IMG/VR virus record: IMGVR_UViG_3300042868_004641
Span: 1-38,282 of that record
Direction: 5' to 3' (one strand)
From: a virus
DNA: 38,282 nucleotides
The position numbers and the translations under genes are program-made. The notes under the pieces were generated by a model. It was not told the DNA's origin, did no database searches, and saw only the letters and a program-made list of their open reading frames with translations. Shown here in pieces: positions 1 to 9,051 of this stretch; within the stretch, counting starts at the first letter, position 1; the number at the start of each line of letters is the position of its first letter.

Positions 1-150
1 CCAGTTGTATTCCAGCTCACGACCAGTGGTGATATTGATTGGCAATGCCAGACAATAAATGCACGTGCGCTGTGGTTACGGGGGTTATATGTAATACGTT
101 TGCCAAACAAGTTCTGAGATGGATCCGAACCAAAACTTCTTGTAAATAAA
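1..150. repeat. Dyad-repeat spacer, left edge
   Basis: No gene is visible. The stretch holds members of the short dyad repeat family that fills every spacer of the left cluster: a variant core TTGGCAATGCCAG at 40-52, a TGTAATACG box at 90-98 and TTGCCAAACAA at 100-110. It is cut by the window edge, so the gene on its left is not seen. Confidence 0.6.
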
Positions 151-173
151 AAACCCCCGAATTACTTCGAGGG
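146..173 (-). terminator. Intrinsic terminator of the 203-748 gene
   Basis: Read on the minus strand, CCCTCGAA pairs with TTCGGGGG around a short loop and is followed by a run of T. It lies about 30 bases past the stop of the gene ending at 203. Confidence 0.8.
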
Positions 174-202
174 TCTTCACCTTTTCTCAACCTTATGTAT
201 TT

Positions 203-748
203 CTACACAACTTCCTTTTGATAATGTTCTAATATTGAATTCGCTTCACTTTCACATTCTTCTTCACTAAAAAAACCTCCGTAACCTTCAACAAAGTTTT
301 TATGTTGGTGACCTAAACTACAAGTTTCAATTTCATAAATTGTAAAACCATATACTTGACCCGTTAGATACTTATCATAAGTTTCAACTTCACTTTCAAG
401 GTATTCAATAACTTTAGTTTCATCAATACCTTCTTTCTTTATTTTATGTTTAGATACAAAGATAAAACCAATTTGACCACTATCCCAACGACAACTGAAC
501 GAACTTGTGGATATAGTTATACCCGAGTGGTCGTATAGATACAAAGGTAAGATAACAACTTCACCTTCATTAGTAATAATACCTTCTTTTAATTCGTCCC
601 AACTATTATAATCTTCCGTACGATAATCGGTCTTGTCACCCAAGTCGTATCGTTTGTGAAAACAAACCATTGTACCTAAATTATCCCACTCGGTACGAGG
701 ATTCATTGGGTCTGTGTCTTGTTCAATTTTTAATTCATACTTTTTCAT
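203..748 (-). CDS. Conserved phage protein of unknown function
   Basis: 181 aa soluble protein, function not known. The central segment (about residues 66-100) reads LPLYLYDHSGITIST followed by a CRWDSGQIGFIFVSK stretch, which I recall as the core of a hypothetical protein found in many unrelated phages. Acidic overall, with no signal peptide or membrane segment. It is a single-gene unit: a host-type promoter lies just upstream (TACCTTTA on the minus strand, 767-774), a terminator follows at 146-173, and dyad repeats flank it. The start sits after AAAACAAACAAT, the same leader as the gene starting at 3426. Probably an early or accessory gene. Confidence 0.85.
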   Translation of the reverse strand: MKKYELKIEQDTDPMNPRTEWDNLGTMVCFHKRYDLGDKTDYRTEDYNSWDELKEGIITNEGEVVILPLYLYDHSGITISTSSFSCRWDSGQIGFIFVSKHKIKKEGIDETKVIEYLESEVETYDKYLTGQVYGFTIYEIETCSLGHQHKNFVEGYGGFFSEEECESEANSILEHYQKEVV

Positions 749-766
749 ATTGTTTGTTTTAGGGTA

Positions 767-774
767 TAAAGGTA
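767..774 (-). promoter_or_regulatory. Host-type -7 box for the 203-748 gene
   Basis: On the minus strand this reads TACCTTTA, close to the Bacteroidota TAnnTTTG -7 element. It sits about 18 bases upstream of the ATG, below a TTAACAAAG tract at about 812-820 that resembles the TTAACAAG found before other genes of this cluster. Confidence 0.55.
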
Positions 775-834
775 ATTCTTTTATATAACATATACAAATA
801 TCATTGCTAAAACTTTGTTAAAGAATTTTCACAG

Positions 835-1160
835 ATGCAGATCTTGTATTATTGATTGGCAAATGCCAAACAAATTGTCTACAATGCTGCGTCCCAAGTC
901 GTTTTGTATTACGTTGCCAAACAATATGTGCACAGGCCTGTGGCGCATGGTCTACAACATTTATCGTTCATTCGTAATACGTTTATCGGTCAAATAGGTG
1001 TCAAAATGATCGATAAATGACTTGTGTTTGAACGATAAGTTTCATTTTGACTTGTAATACGATTGCCAAACAATATACTCCTGCGGCGCAGTTTTGCTGA
1101 GTTTGATAAAAAGTTGCCAAACAATATACTCCTGTGGCACTGTAACTTCAGGGTTAAAAT
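835..1160. repeat. Dyad-repeat spacer A
   Basis: Over 400 bases without a convincing gene. It holds the core TTGGCAAATGCCAA at 856-869, further TTGCCAAACAAT boxes near 914, 1063 and 1114, TAATACG boxes near 974 and 1055, and a separate 10-bp inverted repeat (GTCAAAATGA at 1000-1009 against TCATTTTGAC at 1042-1051). Two neighbouring units both read GCCAAACAATATACTCCTG. The short open frames here have no homology-like features and simply translate the repeats. Confidence 0.75.
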
Positions 1161-1188
1161 AAAAACCCCCCGTATGTAATACGAGGGG
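1161..1188 (-). terminator. Intrinsic terminator of the 1966-1226 operon
   Basis: Minus strand: CCCCTCGTAT, loop TAC, ATACGGGGGG, then five T. The stem contains the same GTAATACG word that recurs in the spacer repeats. Confidence 0.85.
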
Positions 1189-1225
1189 AACATGAAAAAC
1201 ACAATATGAACACAAACAAAAAGAA

Positions 1226-1576
1226 TTAATAGTTATTATCTATAAAATTATGAGGGTTATAATTCCTTCTCATAGGAGTTCTAACTCTATGACTTGTTGG
1301 AGTATAAGACAAAGGTCTATCATTGTTAAATGACCTTTCCATTCTTTGTTCAATAGTAGGAACTTCATAGTCCATTTCAGGTGGAATACCATTCTTAACT
1401 TGCCAAGCCATTTTTTGGATTACGTTCAAGGTTTCCTCAACGAAAACAATTCCGTTGGTTGTGGTTACTTTGGATTGTACCAAACCACTTTTCATATCAG
1501 TATCCATATAGATAGATACGATTTGGTCAACATTTATTAATGTTGGTGTCCCTCTATGGGTTAATTTAATTAACAT
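1226..1576 (-). CDS. Small protein with FlbD-like N-terminal domain
   Basis: 116 aa. The first about 65 residues (IKLTHRGTPTLINVDQIVSI, then a strand-rich stretch ending FVEETLNVIQKM) have the layout of FlbD-like small beta proteins: IKLT, then hydrophobic strands, then a VxExxxxVxxK helix. The tail from residue 75 is polar and Arg/Asn-rich, probably disordered. Third gene of a three-gene minus-strand operon: its ATG directly follows the stop of the 56-aa zinc protein (TAAATG). Function unknown; the FlbD comparison is fold-level only and does not imply a flagellar role. Confidence 0.75.
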   Translation of the reverse strand: MLIKLTHRGTPTLINVDQIVSIYMDTDMKSGLVQSKVTTTNGIVFVEETLNVIQKMAWQVKNGIPPEMDYEVPTIEQRMERSFNNDRPLSYTPTSHRVRTPMRRNYNPHNFIDNNY

Positions 1577-1747
1577 TTAATTTAATTTTAAGTTTGTGAA
1601 TATTAATTCCATTCTCGCAGGAACGACTTTTGTTAGATTACAAACATCACAACATTCATCATTCTCATTTTCAGTTTGTATTGGACTTGGGTCATTACCA
1701 TAACCCTCGACTTCCTCACCACAAAAACAACATTTGAATTTTTCCAT
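1577..1747 (-). CDS. 56-aa cysteine-rich putative zinc protein
   Basis: Short gene read directly from the minus strand: start MEKFKCCFCGEE, later DECCDVCNLTKVV, ending in NLKLN. Two cysteine groups (CCxxC near residues 6-9 and CCxxC near 34-37), about 25 residues apart, can form one treble-clef or zinc-ribbon site. The stop codon abuts the next gene's ATG at 1576, and the start lies 6 bases after the stop of the 70-aa gene upstream, so the three genes are almost certainly cotranscribed and translationally coupled. Function not recognised; proteins of this size often bind nucleic acid or a partner protein. Confidence 0.75.
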   Translation of the reverse strand: MEKFKCCFCGEEVEGYGNDPSPIQTENENDECCDVCNLTKVVPARMELIFTNLKLN

Positions 1748-1753
1748 TTTTAT

Positions 1754-1966
1754 TTAATTTATGATTTCAAAAATATCTTCACCAATAATAAGTCCTAAAC
1801 TTCTACCATTATCCCAACGGACATTTACAACATCATAACCAACATTATAAACTACTCCCTCACTTCCTACCTCAATAGGTAAAGGGTCGTTATTCATTGG
1901 TTCGATAAGTTTAACTCTTTTACCCATTAATATATTTGGGTTTACAACATAGTCATTTATTAACAT
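1754..1966 (-). CDS. DUF4314-like small beta-barrel protein
   Basis: 70 aa. From residue 14 it reads MGKRVKLIEPMNNDPLP, GSEGVVYNV, VRWDNGRSLGLIIGEDIF. This is the DUF4314 pattern: a GxRVxLi start, a DPxPi segment, GxxGxV and a WDNGxxLxLixgxD end, predicted to form an SH3-like barrel. First gene of the three-gene operon. Promoter: TATCTTCG (minus strand, 1986-1993) with TTTG at 2014-2017, 20 bases apart. Molecular role unknown. Confidence 0.8.
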   Translation of the reverse strand: MLINDYVVNPNILMGKRVKLIEPMNNDPLPIEVGSEGVVYNVGYDVVNVRWDNGRSLGLIIGEDIFEIIN

Positions 1967-1985
1967 ATCATTTAGATTTAGAACA

Positions 1986-2017
1986 CGAAGATAAGTAAGT
2001 TATTTTTATATACCAAA
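1986..2017 (-). promoter_or_regulatory. Host-type promoter of the 1966-1226 operon
   Basis: Minus strand TTTG (2017-2014), 20 bases, TATCTTCG (1993-1986): close to the Bacteroidota -33/-7 consensus. A TTAACAAGTATATTCTAA tract lies just upstream, as in the next unit. Confidence 0.65.
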
Positions 2018-2048
2018 TCTTTTTTAGAATATACTTGTTAAATCTATG

Positions 2049-2200
2049 TTAAAGAATATCTCCCCTGTGATCACCTGAGTAAATTTGATTGGCATATGTA
2101 ATACGACCTTCCCGTCTGAGATCAGAATAATTTGATTGGCAATTGCCAAACAATATATTTGCATGCGCATGGTAAAACGTGTAATACGAGGTGGACATAA
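2049..2200. repeat. Dyad-repeat spacer B
   Basis: Holds TTTGATTGGCATATGTAATACG (written in two parts: TTTGATTGGCA, then TATGTAATACG) at about 2083-2105, a perfect 14-bp palindrome TTGGCAATTGCCAA at 2136-2149 followed by ACAATAT and a GC-rich dyad (GCATGCGCATG), and a further GTAATACG. The two unit types meet head to head at the palindrome. No gene supported. Confidence 0.75.
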
Positions 2201-2230
2201 AAAAACCCCACCGATTTCTCGATGAGGTCT
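2198..2230 (-). terminator. Intrinsic terminator of the 2254-2769 gene
   Basis: Minus strand: ACCTCATCGA, loop GAAA, TCGGTGGGGT, then seven T. Lies about 25 bases past the stop codon. Confidence 0.85.
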
Positions 2231-2253
2231 TTCTATTATGAACCAAGAGTTCT

Positions 2254-2769
2254 TTAATTATTGTAAATATAACAATCAGTTTTTTCTACACCATTTTTTA
2301 TATCAATAGAATATATTGATGAACCAACAATATAACTACCATATCCATTTTGTGCTTTCATAGGGTATGAAATTCTAATTCCGTTATTATCACTAAAATA
2401 GATAATACCTTTACTATCATCAATAAAATCTAAACTACTACCATTTTTTAATTTCATTTTAAGATAAATTTTAGACATAGTAATCTGACCATTTAAATAC
2501 ATTATTACTTCGTCCCAACCTTTATGGTTGTCAATGTATTCTTTATTTTTTGGGTTATCCCAAGTTATTTTTTTCCACAAACTGAACAATTCAGAAGATT
2601 TAACTTTCTCATATCTATCTTTATCTAAAGAGAATTTAATTGTTCTTTCAATGCCCACACCATTTTCTAATGTGGAATACAAATATTCTCCATCATATTT
2701 TGGTTGTTTAAGTTGTCCGTATGACACGAACGATACCAATACCATTGAGAACACTAATAACTTTTTCAT
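2254..2769 (-). CDS. Exported protein of unknown function
   Basis: 171 aa from the chosen ATG at 2769, where MKKLLVFSMVLVSFVSYGQ gives a classic cleavable signal peptide (cut near residues 17-19); the upstream in-frame ATG adds a poor leader and lies closer to the promoter. The mature part is polar and beta-rich, with two late cysteine-poor strands and one Cys near the end. No known domain recognised. Own promoter (TATCTTCG at 2802-2809 minus, CAAA complement at 2829-2832, 19 bases apart) and own terminator. An exported product from an early-type promoter suggests action on the cell envelope of the infected host, for example superinfection exclusion; that role is inference. Confidence 0.8.
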   Translation of the reverse strand: MKKLLVFSMVLVSFVSYGQLKQPKYDGEYLYSTLENGVGIERTIKFSLDKDRYEKVKSSELFSLWKKITWDNPKNKEYIDNHKGWDEVIMYLNGQITMSKIYLKMKLKNGSSLDFIDDSKGIIYFSDNNGIRISYPMKAQNGYGSYIVGSSIYSIDIKNGVEKTDCYIYNN

Positions 2770-2801
2770 TTTAATTTTTTTTAATGATTTATAATAGAAC
2801 A

Positions 2802-2832
2802 CGAAGATACTACCTTTTTAGTATATCACAAA
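2802..2832 (-). promoter_or_regulatory. Host-type promoter of the exported-protein gene
   Basis: Minus strand TTTG (2832-2829), 19 bases, TATCTTCG (2809-2802), followed by TG. Upstream TTAACAAGTATATTCTAA matches the tract before the 1966 gene. Confidence 0.7.
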
Positions 2833-2865
2833 ATTATTTAGAATATACTTGTTAAAATATTGTTA

Positions 2866-3125
2866 ATATGTAATACGACCAACCAACCCTTCTTGAGGAA
2901 GACCCGGTCAATATATTGTTTGGCATATGTAATACGACCCCCCGTGGGACGAAGGTGATCGATATATTTTGATTGGCAAATGCCAAACAACATCACCACG
3001 GGTGCACTGTAACTTCAGGGTTAAATGTAATATGAAGTTTTCTCGTCTGAGATCCCAACTATTTGATTGGCAAATGCCAAACAATATTTCACAGAGACGA
3101 TTCTATAACGGCATCTTCATAAAAC
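2866..3125. repeat. Dyad-repeat spacer C
   Basis: Cores TTGGCAAATGCCAA at 2973-2986 and 3067-3080, TATGTAATACGACC near 2870 and 2927, CTGAGATC near 3047, and a 22-base segment (3004-3025) identical to 1137-1158 in spacer A. Units end with GC-rich dyads such as CACCACGGGTG. The short open frame here is repeat sequence, not a gene. Confidence 0.75.
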
Positions 3126-3152
3126 AAAAACCCCCCGTATTTCTACGAGGGG
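3126..3152 (-). terminator. Intrinsic terminator of the 3184-3426 gene
   Basis: Minus strand CCCCTCGTA, short loop, TACGGGGGG, then TTTTTG. Near copy of the terminator at 1161-1188. Confidence 0.85.
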
Positions 3153-3183
3153 AAAGTTATGAAAAACCAGAACCAACAATAAC

Positions 3184-3426
3184 TTAATACTCTACTTCAG
3201 TTTCTTCACATTCAACTTCATAGATATTATCGAAAATTTCTTCACTCAATACAATTGAATGATTATATAAACCTATAACATTATCAATTTGTTCAGTAAC
3301 GTATTCCTCAAAAGTATCACCACTTTCTTTAAAACACGTGTCATTAGTAGATAAGAACAATTTAGTAATGTTTGGTTCAACACCAAATTCGTTTTGTGAA
3401 ATAATCACAATGTTTTCTTTTTTCAT
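3184..3426 (-). CDS. Small acidic hypothetical protein
   Basis: 80 aa from the ATG at 3426 (MKKENIVIISQNEFGVEPN); the longer open frame starts inside the promoter and is rejected. Very acidic, with about a dozen Glu in the last 35 residues (ending VECEETEVEY). No domain recognised. Single-gene unit with promoter CAAAGATA complement at 3445-3452, leader CAAACAAT before the ATG and terminator at 3126-3152. Small acidic early phage proteins are often inhibitors or DNA mimics, but nothing here proves that. Confidence 0.7.
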   Translation of the reverse strand: MKKENIVIISQNEFGVEPNITKLFLSTNDTCFKESGDTFEEYVTEQIDNVIGLYNHSIVLSEEIFDNIYEVECEETEVEY

Positions 3427-3444
3427 ATTGTTTGTTTTAGACCA

Positions 3445-3452
3445 CAAAGATA
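3445..3452 (-). promoter_or_regulatory. Host-type -7 box
   Basis: Minus strand TATCTTTG followed by TGG, an exact TAnnTTTG match, 18 bases before the ATG at 3426. TTAACATATTTTTAACAAG lies upstream. Confidence 0.7.
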
Positions 3453-3499
3453 ATACTTTTTTCTTTATAATTCTTATCTATTAATAATTACTTGTTAAA

Positions 3500-3745
3500 A
3501 ATATGTTAATGTAATACCAAAATCTTTCACCTGTCGTCCACACTCGAATATTGATTGGCATGTAATACCGAACCCCCAACATCCTGATCGGTTACCGAAA
3601 CTTGATTGGCATATCCGATTATATCCGTAGATATACTATAACATATCCGAATCTGCCAAACAACAATTTTCCCGTCGGGGACTCAAGATTCGTTGTATGA
3701 CAAATTTTGCCAAACAATAAAATCACGGACGTGGAGAATATGGTC
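3500..3745. repeat. Dyad-repeat spacer D
   Basis: TTGATTGGCA boxes at about 3551 and 3602, TGTAATACC boxes near 3509 and 3561, and TGCCAAACAA boxes near 3655 and 3709. Between two of them is an ATATCCG-rich segment (3611-3652) with three ATATCCG copies. Unit bodies are GC-richer than the boxes. No gene supported. Confidence 0.7.
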
Positions 3746-3746
3746 A

Positions 3747-3775
3747 ATAAAAAACCCCCGTATTACTACGAGGGT
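3747..3775 (-). terminator. Intrinsic terminator of the 3796-4761 gene
   Basis: Minus strand ACCCTCGTAGTAATACGGGGGT then a T run. The stem again carries GTAATACG. Confidence 0.85.
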
Positions 3776-3795
3776 TAAAACAAAACATATAACAA

Positions 3796-4761
3796 TTAAA
3801 CAATTTCCATTTCCTCGTACTCCTCAAAAACTTCCCCCTCACATTTGTTAAGATGATTACGATTATAACCATTTTTAAGATATGACCTTACAGAAACAAT
3901 TTTATAATCTAATCTTGTAGTTCCATTAGGTTTTAATAATCTTAAATGACTTCTAACGGGAAACCCGTCTAATCTAATACTCACCTCGTTCCAATTTGTA
4001 TCAACAACAATAAATTCTTTCTTTGTTAAGTTTTTACATTCAGTACCTTTTACAAAATTACCAACCTTATCTTTCGGTGGAACAATTTTAAAAGTAGTTT
4101 CTCCCAATTCAATAAATGATATTAACTTAACAAATCTCATATACAAAGATTCATCTCTTTGTTTATCGTGTTGGTCGGTAAATGAATCAGTATAAAAATG
4201 TACTCTATTTTCTAAATCAATATCAATAGTGTATTGTTTAATAGTAATTTCATCTTTATTTCCGTTGAATGAATTTTCATTAACACAATATACAACAACG
4301 ATTCTATTATCAGTTTTTTTATAAACTACCGAAACATCTTTATCAATATAAATCATATCCGTTCTATTCGGTAAGGTTTTAAGATAATCGTAACGAACGT
4401 TCTTATCTACTTTTAATGTTTCAATTAAGTCCAAACATTTTTTAGTCATAACCAATTTACGAATATCTTTTTCAACCCATAAATCAAATCTATCTCTAAC
4501 TAAGTAAAAAGTTTTAGTAGTGTTATAATCTTCCCATAATAAAGATTCAACATAATCTTTTGGTCTTTTACCACTTGATATTAATTTTTCGTACACTTCC
4601 ATACCACCAATTTTTTCAATTAATTCAGTTAGGGGAACATCGCCGATTCCACCATCAATTTCTTTCTTTACAAATTCATTATGTTCTCTCATTCGTTTTT
4701 TAAATTCGTGTGTTTGAATTACGTGAAAAACGGAGTTTTCATCAATTTTAAAATTACTCAT
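3796..4761 (-). CDS. Conserved phage hypothetical protein
   Basis: 321 aa from the ATG at 4761 (MSNFKIDENSVFHVIQTHEF); the first 8 residues of the longer frame fall in the promoter leader. Soluble and charged. The C-terminal part (VVDTNWNEVSIRLDGFPVRS then HLRLLKPNG and a KNGYNR segment) resembles a conserved C-terminal block I recall from other phage hypotheticals (VDSTWF, EGFxVRGHFRLQP, FEKxGYxR); that is recollection, not a search. Function unknown. Single-gene unit: promoter TATCTTTG (minus, 4783-4790), terminator at 3747-3775. Confidence 0.8.
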   Translation of the reverse strand: MSNFKIDENSVFHVIQTHEFKKRMREHNEFVKKEIDGGIGDVPLTELIEKIGGMEVYEKLISSGKRPKDYVESLLWEDYNTTKTFYLVRDRFDLWVEKDIRKLVMTKKCLDLIETLKVDKNVRYDYLKTLPNRTDMIYIDKDVSVVYKKTDNRIVVVYCVNENSFNGNKDEITIKQYTIDIDLENRVHFYTDSFTDQHDKQRDESLYMRFVKLISFIELGETTFKIVPPKDKVGNFVKGTECKNLTKKEFIVVDTNWNEVSIRLDGFPVRSHLRLLKPNGTTRLDYKIVSVRSYLKNGYNRNHLNKCEGEVFEEYEEMEIV

Positions 4762-4782
4762 ATTATTTTGTTTTTGTTCCCA

Positions 4783-4790
4783 CAAAGATA
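4783..4790 (-). promoter_or_regulatory. Host-type -7 box
   Basis: Minus strand TATCTTTG followed by TGG, exact TAnnTTTG, about 21 bases before the ATG at 4761. Confidence 0.7.
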
Positions 4791-4849
4791 ATACTTTTTT
4801 ATTTATATAAACAAATATATTTTAATTAATTTTAGAATATTTTTTTCCT

Positions 4850-5010
4850 TGATCCAGTTTGGATATGTTCTGGCAATTGCCAAACAATAAATTCACGGAC
4901 GAGGTTCGTAAAGAATTTAAAATGTGTTGCCAAACCATATTACCCGGTGACCAGACATCTGTGGGTGTATGACAAATGCCAAACAACATTATGGATTACG
5001 GAGATAGATA
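4850..5010. repeat. Dyad-repeat spacer E
   Basis: TGGCAATTGCCA palindrome at 4871-4882 followed by AACAATAAATTCACGGACGAGG, here quoted in parts as AACAATAAAT and TCACGGACGAGG. The second part is nearly the same as TCACGGACGTGG in spacer D. Further TTGCCAAAC near 4927 and TGCCAAACAA near 4977. No gene supported. Confidence 0.7.
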
Positions 5011-5014
5011 TGGT

Positions 5015-5043
5015 TAAAAAAAAACCACCCCTTTCGGAGTGGT
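5015..5043 (-). terminator. Intrinsic terminator of the 5065-5619 gene
   Basis: Minus strand ACCACTCC, loop GAAA, GGGGTGGT, then nine T. Confidence 0.9.
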
Positions 5044-5064
5044 CGGTTAGTAGGGGAACTAACC

Positions 5065-5619
5065 TTAAAGAATTGTGTATTCTTGTTTAAGAATTTTAAT
5101 TCTCTTAATGTGGTCTAAAGACATTACCTTATAATTTAAGGTATTCTCTAAACCATTTTGATACTTTGAATAGTCGGTCTTTGTATCAATCATATATTGT
5201 TGGAACAATAACTTTTCAATACTATTACCCTCTAACAAATACTTTGTATCAAGATAAGAACTATCGTGGTCTTGGTATCTAAAGTAAAACTTTGTTGGGT
5301 CGGACTTTAAAAATACCAAACTTTTAGAAACCAACTGATAAGGACTTTCTTTTTTATCTTCCTTAACAATAGGGGTAATTCCCTCTTTATCATACTTACG
5401 ACCTAATTGACTATCGTAATCAAAACCTGTTTGGATATTTGATAATCGTTGTTCAACCAATACTCGGTCGTAATAAGGGTTAGGGTTTTGTTTACCACTT
5501 TGTTTGAAGTCAAGATACTTGTTCATCTTAACTTTTTTTAATGTTGTCAATCCCACATTAGGGACAAAGATATCTATACCTGATAGTATATCTTTTAGTT
5601 CAGTTTTAATAATGTTCAT
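5065..5619 (-). CDS. Hypothetical protein, phage early cluster
   Basis: 184 aa, soluble, Lys/Tyr/Asp-rich, with no domain I can name. N-terminus MNIIKTELKDILSGIDIFVP; middle contains KYDKEGITPIVKED and SDPTKFYFRYQDHDSSY. Own promoter (TAACTTTG on the minus strand, 5639-5646) and terminator at 5015-5043. It is the rightmost gene of the left-hand minus cluster; the strand-switch spacer lies upstream of it. Confidence 0.75.
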   Translation of the reverse strand: MNIIKTELKDILSGIDIFVPNVGLTTLKKVKMNKYLDFKQSGKQNPNPYYDRVLVEQRLSNIQTGFDYDSQLGRKYDKEGITPIVKEDKKESPYQLVSKSLVFLKSDPTKFYFRYQDHDSSYLDTKYLLEGNSIEKLLFQQYMIDTKTDYSKYQNGLENTLNYKVMSLDHIKRIKILKQEYTIL

Positions 5620-5638
5620 ATCTAATTGTTTGTTCCCA

Positions 5639-5646
5639 CAAAGTTA
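5639..5646 (-). promoter_or_regulatory. Host-type -7 box
   Basis: Minus strand TAACTTTG followed by TGG, exact TAnnTTTG, about 20 bases before the ATG at 5619; TTTG elements lie further upstream at the expected range. Confidence 0.65.
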
Positions 5647-5699
5647 ATGAATATACCAATACAAAGTTAGAATATACAAATAAAGTTATCCACATTCCA

Positions 5700-6010
5700 T
5701 TGTTAATAACTTGGGGGTTCACCTTCGGGAACTAATGTGGTTTGGCAAACTCTTGAGAACGAACCTTGATGGGATACTCCATTATTGTTTGGCAGGTGGG
5801 GTAAGGTATTGATAGTCAAAGGGTTAGGGGTAGGTAGGAGTGTAGGTAGGGATATACCCCCTCCCCCCTCCCGTATCCCCCCTTTATATAGTGTTTTAGG
5901 GGGGTCTATAAGAGGGGGTCAATGCCACGACTGAAATTTTTCCAGAAAAAATCGGGGAAATTGACCTTACCCCCTAAAGTAGAAATAAAATTTTCCAGAA
6001 TTTTTTGGGG
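5700..6010. other. Strand-switch spacer with C and G tracts
   Basis: About 300 bases without a gene, between leftward early-type genes and rightward late-type genes. It has two inverted TTTGGCA boxes (5740-5746 and 5789-5794 region), a run of GGGTAGGTAGG repeats, a C-rich block, a 7-bp hairpin (CCCCCCT at 5877-5883 with AGGGGGG at 5898-5904) and an inverted GGTCAAT (5917-5923) / ATTGACC (5960-5966). Such G/C asymmetry at a point of divergent transcription would fit a replication or transcription hub, but no origin protein site is recognised. Confidence 0.45.
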
Positions 6011-6019
6011 ATATTTATA
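5937..6019 (+). promoter_or_regulatory. Late-type promoter with TTCCAGAA upstream motif
   Basis: TTTTTCCAGAAA (5937-5948) and TTTTCCAGAA (5991-6000) precede TATTTATA at 6012-6019, 6 bases before the ATG at 6026. The same TTxCAGAA word precedes the next gene (6671-6680) and the 7330 gene (7261-7268). Confidence 0.5.
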
Positions 6020-6025
6020 TATTAC

Positions 6026-6664
6026 ATGAAACTATTAGATACCATATACGAATCCGTTCTATTAGAATACTCATATAAACTCATTGACCTATTGGTAGAT
6101 AGGTTTAGTGAGGAAGGTGTAGATCCCGAAGAGGCAAGGGAGTATATTAATTTGTTTCATAGGTTCTCTCAAGGACTCGATCCTAACAAAAGGGACATCA
6201 CCAAGTATTCGTGGGACGAATTAGTTCAAGTAGTTAATGATAAGAAAGATAGTAGAAGGATTAAGGCAGGGAAAATCGGGGACAAGAATATAGATAAGGA
6301 TGATGTTGTTTATGGTAAGGATGGTGTGATGATATATAGAGGGGACAGTAAGGAGAAATGTATTAGATATGGTAATGGTTACAATTTATGTATATCTTCA
6401 AGAGGAGATGATAACAAATACGATGAATATACGAGTACCACAAGAAACTATTATTTTATATTCAACAATAACTTAGATAAGGATGACCCTTTACATTTAG
6501 TTGTTATACAGAGACTTTTATATCCTTTAACACGTGATTCAAGTCCGTATGTATTGTGGAATGCCGAAAACAGGTTGATGTTCCCTGCCGATAAATTACC
6601 AAGTTTCAAAACAATCGAATTGATATTACCTTGGTTAGAAGGATTGGAACATATCTTCGTATAG
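6026..6664 (+). CDS. Tagged protein: helical YSWDEL module plus WCT-like domain
   Basis: 212 aa from the ATG at 6026; the 7 residues upstream of it overlap the TATTTATA box. Class B tag MKLLDTIYESVLLEYS. Residues about 18-75 form a helical module ending DITKYSWDELVQVV (YSWDEL 61-66). Residues about 95-165 (IRYGNGYNLCISSRG, then YYFIFNN and HLVVIQ) match, in weakened form, a domain also present in the proteins at 23078 and 33552, where the signature is WCT/WCVT followed by FxIMxx. Here W is replaced (NLCIS), so any activity may be altered. Likely a virion or injected protein if the tag is a capsid-targeting leader; enzymatic role unknown. Confidence 0.8.
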   Translation: MKLLDTIYESVLLEYSYKLIDLLVDRFSEEGVDPEEAREYINLFHRFSQGLDPNKRDITKYSWDELVQVVNDKKDSRRIKAGKIGDKNIDKDDVVYGKDGVMIYRGDSKEKCIRYGNGYNLCISSRGDDNKYDEYTSTTRNYYFIFNNNLDKDDPLHLVVIQRLLYPLTRDSSPYVLWNAENRLMFPADKLPSFKTIELILPWLEGLEHIFV

Positions 6665-6687
6665 TAAAAATTTTTCAGAATTTTTTA

Positions 6688-6695
6688 TATTTATA
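6688..6695 (+). promoter_or_regulatory. Late-type TATTTATA box
   Basis: TATTTATA 16 bases before the ATG at 6712, preceded by TTTTTCAGAATTTTTT (6671-6686). Confidence 0.5.
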
Positions 6696-6711
6696 TAACA
6701 AACATCCATAC

Positions 6712-7245: not shown

Positions 7246-7298
7246 AAGTGAAATAAAAAATTCCAGAAAATTTTTAGGATATTTAAGAATATTAAACG

Positions 7299-7329: not shown

Positions 7330-9051
7330 ATGAGAACATTATTAGTCATTGTATTATTCTTAACATTAGGGTGTAAAAAGACAGATTTCATGATGGGACC
7401 ACAACCTCCTGTAAATCAAGAAGAATCTATTAAGTTTAAAACAAATTTAGATACGGGTGTTAACTATGTAAAGGATACCCTTAAATTAGAAATAACTCTA
7501 ACCTCTAAATTACCTGATTCAGGGTTAAAATATACGGTTCAAGTTTTATGGGTGGATAGTAATAGATCCGTTTATAGATTGGATACTGTGGACAAATCGA
7601 AAAGTATTGTATTAAACATCAATGGGTTAAATAAGAAAGGTACTTACCAAGTTTCAGTGGAGGTAGCATCAAAATTAAATCTAAACAATCAAGATCGAAA
7701 AACCTTATCTGTAATAAATGACCCATTAAATCAGTTTGTCGGTTATAAAGTAAATCAAACGGAACTATTAATATCAAGACAGAAAAATTTCGGTATTGAT
7801 TATTGGACCAATACAGGGGTGATGGGTGATTTGATGTTGGCGGTTTTTCAAAAAAATATAAATAATAGTAGGTTCGGGAGTTTCTTCAATGGATTTACAT
7901 ATGGGGACATGAATAACGATGGATATATAGATGTATTCAATGCGGGTACATTTTATCAAAATACACAGACAACATTTTCATTCTTAATATGGGACCCAAT
8001 TAAAAAGATATATGAGAACAAGAACTTATTCAATGATAAGTCATTTACTCAGTTCGGTAGAAATAAAAATGATGTGGTACCATTATACTTGAACACCGAT
8101 AATTATGTTGATTTTGTTGTTGTAGATCTTGGAGATGAATCTACTCCTGAAGGTGATGACTATGAACCAATTAGAATTGTTCTAAGTGATGGTAAAGGTG
8201 GGTACGATTTAAAAGAGATCGAAACAAGTGAAAATGACTTTACCACTATTGGAACCCAAAGGGTAAAAAATAATTCTCCTAAGGAAGATATTGCTATTGG
8301 TGATTTGAACGAAGATAATATACCCGATTTGGCAATATTACAGGGAAACTTCTTTTATATCTTTTGGGGTATTAATTCATTCCCTTATTTCTCATCAAAC
8401 AACCCTGCCAAGTTTAATACCGAATCGGTATCATTAAAAATGAATTTAGATAATGGATTTGGGGAGAATGCTGAATTTTGTGCCGGAGGTGTTAGAGTGG
8501 ATATATTCGACACAAACAAAGATGGAAAGAACGATATATTAATGTACGGAGAAGATAGGAACGCTCAACCCAATTCAAAACAATTTAGAGTTTTATTAAA
8601 CTTAGGTAAAGGTAGATTTAATAACTCAAGTGTTAAACGATTACCTTATTTTCACCCTACTGAACAATATATGGGACAAGACGCAATTATTGATGACATT
8701 AACTCAGATGGTTTAAACGACATTATTGCAATTGGACATAATCAAACATATAGAAATTGGAGTATTATGGTTTATATAAAGAAGACAGATGGAACATATG
8801 AAGTTCAAAATAACTTTGTTCAGTATACAATCAACTCCGATAGATCAAATGATAGAAATTGGAAACCCGAAATAATATACCACGATTATAATGGAGATGG
8901 TATTAAAGATATATCCTATCGTAATTCTGCTGACAATCCAGGATTCATGCAAAAGAAATCCGTATTCATTAGAAAGGGTAATCAGTTTATTGAAGAGGAC
9001 TTCTTTAAATATGATTTATACTCCTCAAGTATATTGTCGAGTATTCAATAG
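7330..9051 (+). CDS. Phage-encoded lipoprotein with FG-GAP/VCBS-type repeats
   Basis: 573 aa. MRTLLVIVLFLTLGCKK is a lipoprotein signal with the lipid-bearing Cys at 15. An N-terminal beta domain (about 35-130) is followed by a propeller-like region with calcium-loop motifs DxNxDGxxD at about 193-201 (DMNNDGYID), 325-333 (DLNEDNIPD), 394-402 (DTNKDGKND), 456-464 (DINSDGLND) and 519-527 (DYNGDGIKD), typical of FG-GAP/VCBS repeats (integrin-like beta-propeller). Probably anchored in the host outer membrane, binding protein or glycan. It has a host-type promoter and no tag, unlike its neighbours, so it looks like a separately expressed cargo gene (moron). Ends 2 bases from a convergent gene. Confidence 0.85.
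   Translation: MRTLLVIVLFLTLGCKKTDFMMGPQPPVNQEESIKFKTNLDTGVNYVKDTLKLEITLTSKLPDSGLKYTVQVLWVDSNRSVYRLDTVDKSKSIVLNINGLNKKGTYQVSVEVASKLNLNNQDRKTLSVINDPLNQFVGYKVNQTELLISRQKNFGIDYWTNTGVMGDLMLAVFQKNINNSRFGSFFNGFTYGDMNNDGYIDVFNAGTFYQNTQTTFSFLIWDPIKKIYENKNLFNDKSFTQFGRNKNDVVPLYLNTDNYVDFVVVDLGDESTPEGDDYEPIRIVLSDGKGGYDLKEIETSENDFTTIGTQRVKNNSPKEDIAIGDLNEDNIPDLAILQGNFFYIFWGINSFPYFSSNNPAKFNTESVSLKMNLDNGFGENAEFCAGGVRVDIFDTNKDGKNDILMYGEDRNAQPNSKQFRVLLNLGKGRFNNSSVKRLPYFHPTEQYMGQDAIIDDINSDGLNDIIAIGHNQTYRNWSIMVYIKKTDGTYEVQNNFVQYTINSDRSNDRNWKPEIIYHDYNGDGIKDISYRNSADNPGFMQKKSVFIRKGNQFIEEDFFKYDLYSSSILSSIQ

Follow-up and report, generated by a model that had tools for sequence, protein, structure and literature searches.

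The blocks of small, fast-changing early genes in large phages are likely to supply functions for host takeover and anti-defence, which raises the question addressed here: how can new early genes be added to such a block and yet be correctly expressed? The stretch of DNA analyzed (the window) is IMG/VR virus record IMGVR_UViG_3300042868_004641, which has 38,282 bases, is classed as linear, and is a fragment of a jumbo-phage lineage with genomes of 310 to 335 kb. Its first 5.8 kb consists of minus-strand genes separated by long spacers, and the original prediction described in these spacers a family of repeat units with conserved ends and a variable middle, which were proposed to be cassette-exchange sites, multi-copy operators, or small RNA genes. 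Our analysis of these intergenic arrays favors, with a probability of roughly one-half, multi-copy sites for a putative sequence-specific and probably phage-encoded DNA-binding protein acting on the early block.

Repeat arrays between terminators and promoters

The spacers do hold repeat units. A 10-bp arm (TGCCAANCAA, in either orientation) has 22 exact copies in the 2,161 nt of intergenic DNA in positions 1 to 5800; 1000 dinucleotide shuffles gave 0.03 copies on average and never more than 1. All 22 fall within positions 35 to 5794, and there are none in the genes of this region or in the other 32 kb of the window. A second motif, GTAWTAC, has 12 intergenic copies in the same region (shuffles, 0.5; maximum, 3), none in its genes, and 9 in the remaining 32 kb. 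As originally described, the units face both ways and meet over AA or AT, which was found at four sites (the palindromes in Table 1); the palindromic pair can be written TTGTTTGGCA-NN-TGCCAATCAA. The arms at 35-55 meet over 1 nt, and one of them carries a mismatch. The family was also correctly said to be absent beyond about 5,800, the last copy ending at 5794, and the range given for it, 1 to 5030, does contain arrays but stops short of the last two arms (5738, with one mismatch, and 5785), which lie before the gene at 5065-5619.

Read in the sense direction, along the minus strand of the window, a gene is followed by its terminator, a GC-rich part V, TTGNTTGGCA (the L arm), an inner part, TGCCAANCAA (the R arm), a GC-rich part V′, a promoter, and the next gene. 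In keeping with the original description, the units of the window come after the terminator of a minus-strand gene and before the promoter of the following one. The same layout recurs in related phages. Across nine blocks, 108 of the 119 spacers that are 100 nt or longer contain an exact arm, compared with 6 of 120 shorter gaps. Most genes or short operons of the blocks are served by a host-type promoter and a terminator of their own, and 66 of the 108 array-bounded cassettes contain a single gene by simple open reading frame (ORF) calling. The L arm begins 29 to 58 nt (median, about 39) after the T-run end of the terminator in 58 cases, with the mirror orientation occurring once, and a sense L arm follows 59 of 85 terminators in the blocks but 0 of 154 elsewhere. 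It is the first arm past the gene in 99 of the 108 spacers. On the promoter side, the R arm mostly starts 84 to 118 nt, or about 100 nt, upstream of the −7 box.

The nine phages have 253 exact arms in total, 165 L and 88 R. Arms in the same direction recur at about 51 bp, the arrays hold up to five arms, and the most common gap between an L arm and an R arm is the 2 nt of the palindrome (21 of 73). GTAWTAC lies 1 to 4 nt inside 41 of the 253 arms and again about 43 nt outside, at the start of the next unit. A fixed palindrome mismatch that might label the strand was considered and rejected, the L arms having mostly T and the R arms being mixed, in a count for which the 335-kb record (G001) was wrongly oriented. 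In long arrays of the relatives, the inner parts carry a further shared module, the palindrome GTTCACGNNCCGTGAAC. Several terminator hairpins of the window (e.g., 1166-1188 and 3753-3776) have GTATTAC or a near form of it in both stem and loop, and because of these strings the array motif and the terminators may share a common ancestry.

The arm-bearing block coincides with dense one-strand clusters of TTTG-N19-TAnnTTTG promoters, most clearly in G007, G008, and G009; the strict promoter pattern marks it less clearly in G001. Since these promoters are of the host type, we infer that the block is the early-gene region.

Composition of the variable part

The variable middle was originally said to have, in many units, its own small GC dyad, which is not borne out. 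Among 166 distinct units from the window and related phages there was neither a dyad at a fixed center nor any conserved letter. The middles contain 63 palindromes of 6 bp (50.8 ± 6.6 in dinucleotide shuffles) and 5 stems of at least 6 pairs (5.4 in shuffles), with some excess of palindromes of at least 10 bp (8 versus 3.0 ± 1.7), and the dyads quoted in the prediction are mostly a chance product of GC-rich DNA. The feature that is maintained is high G+C, with a mean of 0.53 (0.47 to 0.64) in V versus 0.33 in spacer DNA away from the arms, in all nine phages and on the outer side of the arms only. V sequences at orthologous places differ from each other nearly as much as random pairs do (0.49 to 0.55 versus 0.47), while terminators and promoters stay more alike.

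Several specific roles for the middle were rejected. It is not an island of restriction sites (206 palindromes of 4 bp versus 204 in shuffles), it does not behave as a hairpin or RNA (mean folding z of −0.13 and −0.14 with RNA parameters and no fixed dyad), its longest matches to its own genome equal those of shuffles, as would not be expected of an antisense sequence or copy, and V and V′ are not inverted copies of each other (identity of 0.54 versus 0.56 at random). In G008 (L118 and L087) the unit has the diverged form GTAATACCTAATGCCAAACAAATT, and V sequences repeat within the genome (TCCAGAGTCTGAAGATGTC), unlike in the other phages.

Distribution and host of the phage lineage

An exact search of IMG/VR with TTGATTGGCA-NN-TGCCAAACAA returned six other contigs, with records of 335, 97, and 67 kb among them. 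A looser search, from which chance matches were filtered by arm counts, added records of 310,691, 310,542, and 82,434 bases, and three more, L240 (105 kb), L245 (16 kb), and L250 (9 kb), came from using the first block protein and the full palindrome as queries. The arm family thus comprises the window and twelve further contigs, G004 and G005 being nearly identical in sequence, so that the units are conserved in related phages. Six related records contain 139 exact matches to TGCCAAHCAAWWT (0 with the reversed control), and 138 of them fall inside a single block per record; arms are absent from the other 80 to 95% of the genomes. A blastn search of an annotated phage collection with the first 8 kb of the window gave no match. 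A cellular origin was rejected, as the palindrome search of a bacterial and archaeal genome collection led to one unrelated contig only. In L250, three TTGCTTGGCA strings occur within 700 nt of coding sequence (7981-8690) and outside the usual terminator context; these are probably due to chance or codon bias.

The three largest records have 126 protein families in common, including the large terminase, a DNA polymerase, a baseplate wedge protein, and an SbcC-like protein, and each of them encodes the ribosomal protein bS21. In G001, bS21 is a minus-strand gene located 2.6 kb beyond that of the terminase. Jumbo phages that encode bS21 have freshwater Bacteroidetes as predicted hosts (PMC9723584), and the largest relatives resemble those phages in genome size (∼300 kb) and in having a reverse-strand bS21 gene near the large terminase. 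This likeness rests on the largest relatives; the window, of which 6 to 38 kb is colinear with about 40 to 70 kb of G001, is a fragment without the bS21-terminase region. The searched passages of the paper on those phages make no mention of intergenic arrays. Because of the kinship with the bS21 jumbo phages and the TAnnTTTG promoters, the hosts of the lineage are probably lake Bacteroidetes.

Cassette turnover around persistent arrays

Compared with the 67-kb record (G004), the window has two extra whole cassettes (the 329- and 182-amino-acid genes), and homology picks up again inside arrays. L240, which is 95% identical in the first block protein, is without three cassettes of the window (F60, F200, and the 182-amino-acid gene) and carries a composite array in which a promoter piece is left stranded. 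In front of F60, exactly one arm-to-arm unit (about 50 bp) distinguishes L245 from the window. Gene order shifts as well, with F60 found elsewhere in the block of the 82-kb record (G009) and with F2 and F17 swapping order between records. Cassettes are thus lost and gained among close relatives, and arrays persist while genes change, which is the outcome of the check originally suggested on gene content between units.

Function of the arrays

A DNA-level role that involves a binding protein is suggested by the conserved arms, their palindromic pairing, the fixed spacing to terminators and promoters, the orientation bias, and the restriction to one block, as well as by DNA outside the arms that is free in sequence and constrained in composition. 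Among the three functions first offered, multi-copy operators for a putative binder are the best supported on these grounds, together with the unstructured middle. The arms and GTAWTAC could be bound by a dimer or by one protein having two recognition surfaces. Transcription leaking beyond a terminator would then be stopped by complexes on L arms, and those on R arms would modulate the next host-type promoter or shut it off. Each early gene would thereby be insulated, and the whole block could be switched as one. What would matter in the GC-rich flanks is their composition (stability, stiffness, and the lack of promoter-like AT-rich sequence) and not their letters. The ParB-like protein F2, which is encoded in seven of the nine blocks and whose model has ParB/Noc-like fold matches at low TM-score, is a candidate binder. 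F4, the first gene product of the block, was rejected as the binder, since it matched no family or structure and its own model is poor.

Several points weigh against such a regulator. The window fragment does not encode F2, the model of which has middling confidence. G009 has few R arms (20 L and 1 R), and therefore the two-sided model is not universal; 11 of the 119 spacers have no exact arm, and R arms at about −100 sit far away for a simple repressor or activator. The longer L-R gaps look bunched near 13, 23, 33, and 43 nt, and tests for a 10.5-bp periodicity gave P values of about 0.015 for L-R gaps and 0.011 for the distance from R arm to promoter, but helical phasing stays a hint because the best-fitting periods, 9.1 and 11.6, disagree. 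A more elaborate proposal, in which the putative binder (perhaps F2) reads two motifs and arrays at almost all gene boundaries in the early block both insulate and serve as a socket for new working single-gene cassettes, is rather improbable in our view.

The turnover described above can also be read as cassette exchange, in which single-gene cassettes enter and leave at the arms by means of a site-specific enzyme or of homologous recombination between arrays. The presence or absence of whole cassettes (329 amino acids, 182 amino acids, and F200) with homology restarting within arrays, the difference of exactly one unit in L245, and the varied gene order all fit this explanation, and the ends of homologies of at least 120 nt lie near arm edges about 2.4 times as often as expected. 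This excess is equal at both edges, however, and would arise from conserved arms alone, and short homologies show no excess at the inner arm edge; gene content differs and arrays persist, but breakpoints do not demonstrably fall at arms. A tyrosine recombinase (PF00589) was found in one of seven records, several of them fragments, and outside the block, in a search that did not extend to serine recombinases or transposases. The operon F3-F59-F18 shows gene changes although it has no internal arms, and exchange does not need a fixed spacing to terminators and promoters. We therefore consider exchange unlikely as the function of the arms, whereas passive recombination between the repeats may well occur as a by-product. 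If a ParB-like block protein bound the arms and GTAWTAC, the arrays could instead be partition or organization sites that tether or organize phage DNA, with secondary effects on genes. The presence of F2 in seven blocks and its ParB/Noc fold matches are in line with this idea, as is P1 ParB, which likewise reads two motif types in varied order. With structure matches of low TM-score, and with arms tied to terminators and promoters in a way that partition sites do not need, this role is distinctly doubtful.

Two further explanations place transcription start points or transcripts in the arrays. The conserved AT-rich motif followed by nonconserved DNA, at a fixed position upstream of genes, would suit promoters of a phage RNA polymerase or sigma factor that point outward from the arms, from R into the gene and from L antisense into the previous gene. 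The majority of arms, being L, would then face against the genes, and arms are missing from most of each genome; no multisubunit phage RNA polymerase was found in a search that did not cover single-subunit polymerases and sigma factors, and we regard such promoters as very unlikely. Small RNA genes with conserved ends would account for the recurring size of about 50 bp with conserved boundaries, but the flat folding scores, the lack of a fixed dyad, and own-genome matches no better than those of shuffles speak against them, and there was no tRNA and no Rfam family at its threshold (three sub-threshold covariance-model matches only), which makes this third function of the original prediction extremely improbable. 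A CRISPR-like array was rejected as well, because arms face both ways in short arrays and the middles have no own-genome matches beyond chance; foreign targets were not searched.

Comparison with known systems

The arrays are closest to stoperators in layout and orientation bias, to PeSL cassettes in their gene-shuffling context, and to the ESAS and EG repeats in being a motif of unknown role. PeSL cassettes of T4-type phages, reportedly described by Arbiol et al. in 2010 in a paper cited in PMC4177764, are said to be mobile regulatory cassettes of a stem-loop and an early promoter that are tied to gene shuffling. The present spacers likewise place a terminator and a TAnnTTTG promoter between genes of a plastic region with gene turnover, but here an extra array of conserved arms and GTAWTAC, with nonconserved GC-rich flanks, parts the terminator from the promoter. 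SbcC-like, baseplate wedge, and terminase families are present in this lineage, but the promoters are of Bacteroidota type.

Stoperators of cluster A mycobacteriophages are copies of one asymmetric 13-mer that are spread over the genome, bound as a monomer by the known immunity repressor of a temperate phage, and proposed to halt elongation (PMC9283540). Both systems have more than 20 short intergenic sites whose orientation tracks transcription. In contrast to stoperators, the arms often form palindromic pairs, are accompanied by GTAWTAC and GC-rich flanks, are confined to one block, and always lie near terminators; R arms also occur (88 versus 165 L), the binder is a putative one, and no lysogeny gene was identified. 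The ESAS of clusters K and EF and the 18-bp inverted repeats of cluster EG Microbacterium phages are similarly intergenic, of unknown role, and kept amid divergence (PMC7302621), but they adjoin start codons, whereas the present arrays follow terminators, lie about 100 nt before promoters, and have up to five arms. Integron attC sites resemble the units in their conserved ends, variable center, and mostly single-gene cassettes. Unlike attC sites, the units have ends that do not pair with each other across the variable part and a middle that does not fold; the cassettes carry their own promoters, and no tyrosine recombinase was found in six of seven records.

In a literature search confined to open-access papers and few queries, none of the systems compared matched on all defining features tested, and we therefore place the arrays more generally among phage control sites that are intergenic and present in many copies. 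A standardized element between genes, with terminator, site, and promoter at fixed spacing and kept although few block genes are common to the phages, offers a testable answer, in one lake-phage lineage, to the question of how new early genes come to be correctly expressed. The array is also a signature by which such early blocks could be spotted in metagenomes.

Other features of the window

Table 1. Arrays, cassettes, and terminators in positions 1 to 5800 of the window
Feature	Position	Strand	Details
Array 1 (truncated by contig end)	1-141		Arms 35-44 (−), 46-55 (+, one mismatch), 101-110 (+); GTAATAC 91-97; next, terminator of the 203-748 gene
Single-gene cassette (F0)	203-748	−	181 amino acids; PHROG 6186, unknown function; relatives near ends of other large phage genomes
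Array 2 and F0 promoter side	749-1165		Arms 852-861 (−), 864-873 (+), 915-924 (+), 1064-1073 (+), 1115-1124 (+); palindrome 852-873; GTAWTAC 906-912, 974-980, 1054-1060
Terminator hairpin of three-gene operon	1166-1188	−	
Three-gene cassette (F18, F59, F3)	1226-1966	−	116, 56, and 70 amino acids; no internal arms; last one DUF4314
Array 3	1967-2200		Arms 2085-2094 (−), 2132-2141 (−), 2144-2153 (+); palindrome 2132-2153; GTAATAC 2098-2104, 2181-2187; −7 box TATCTTCG 1986-1993 (−)
Single-gene cassette	2254-2802	−	182 amino acids; missing at equivalent place in G004 and L240
Array 4	2803-3130		Arms 2916-2925 (−), 2969-2978 (−), 2981-2990 (+), 3063-3072 (−), 3075-3084 (+); palindromes 2969-2990, 3063-3084; GTAATAC 2870-2876, 2929-2935; −7 box TATCTTCG 2802-2809 (−)
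Terminator hairpin	3131-3152	−	
Single-gene cassette (F200)	3184-3447	−	87 amino acids; missing in L240
Array 5	3448-3752		Arms 3551-3560 (−), 3602-3611 (−), 3654-3663 (+), 3708-3717 (+); GTAATAC 3511-3517, 3562-3568; −7 box TATCTTTG 3445-3452 (−)
Terminator hairpin	3753-3776	−	
Single-gene cassette (F60)	3796-4785	−	329 amino acids; same place in G006, elsewhere in block in G009, none at that place in G004 and L240
Array 6	4786-5022		Arms 4878-4887 (+), 4928-4937 (+, one mismatch), 4977-4986 (+); −7 box TATCTTTG 4783-4790 (−)
Terminator hairpin	5023-5044	−	
F4, first gene of block in sense direction	5065-5619	−	184 amino acids; in six of six phages with block edge available
Array 7, end of arm family	5620-5800		Arms 5738-5747 (−, one mismatch), 5785-5794 (−)

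Within array 2, positions 961-1038 form an imperfect nested inverted repeat (TTATCG..., with 32-nt arms that are 75% complementary), and similar DNA is present in the blocks of G001, G004, and G006. A search for relatives of the 573-amino-acid protein at 7330-9051 found none. The C-terminal part of the ORF at 12951-14705 matches HNH/homing endonuclease families (PHROG 559; E value, 4e−35), with relatives in G001, G004, and G006. Four copies of a motif like AAATTTTTCCAGAATTTTTTGGGGATATTTATA occur shortly before plus-strand genes (5929-6017, 6662-6697, and 7250-7285), and this motif is a possible middle or late promoter element of the phage.

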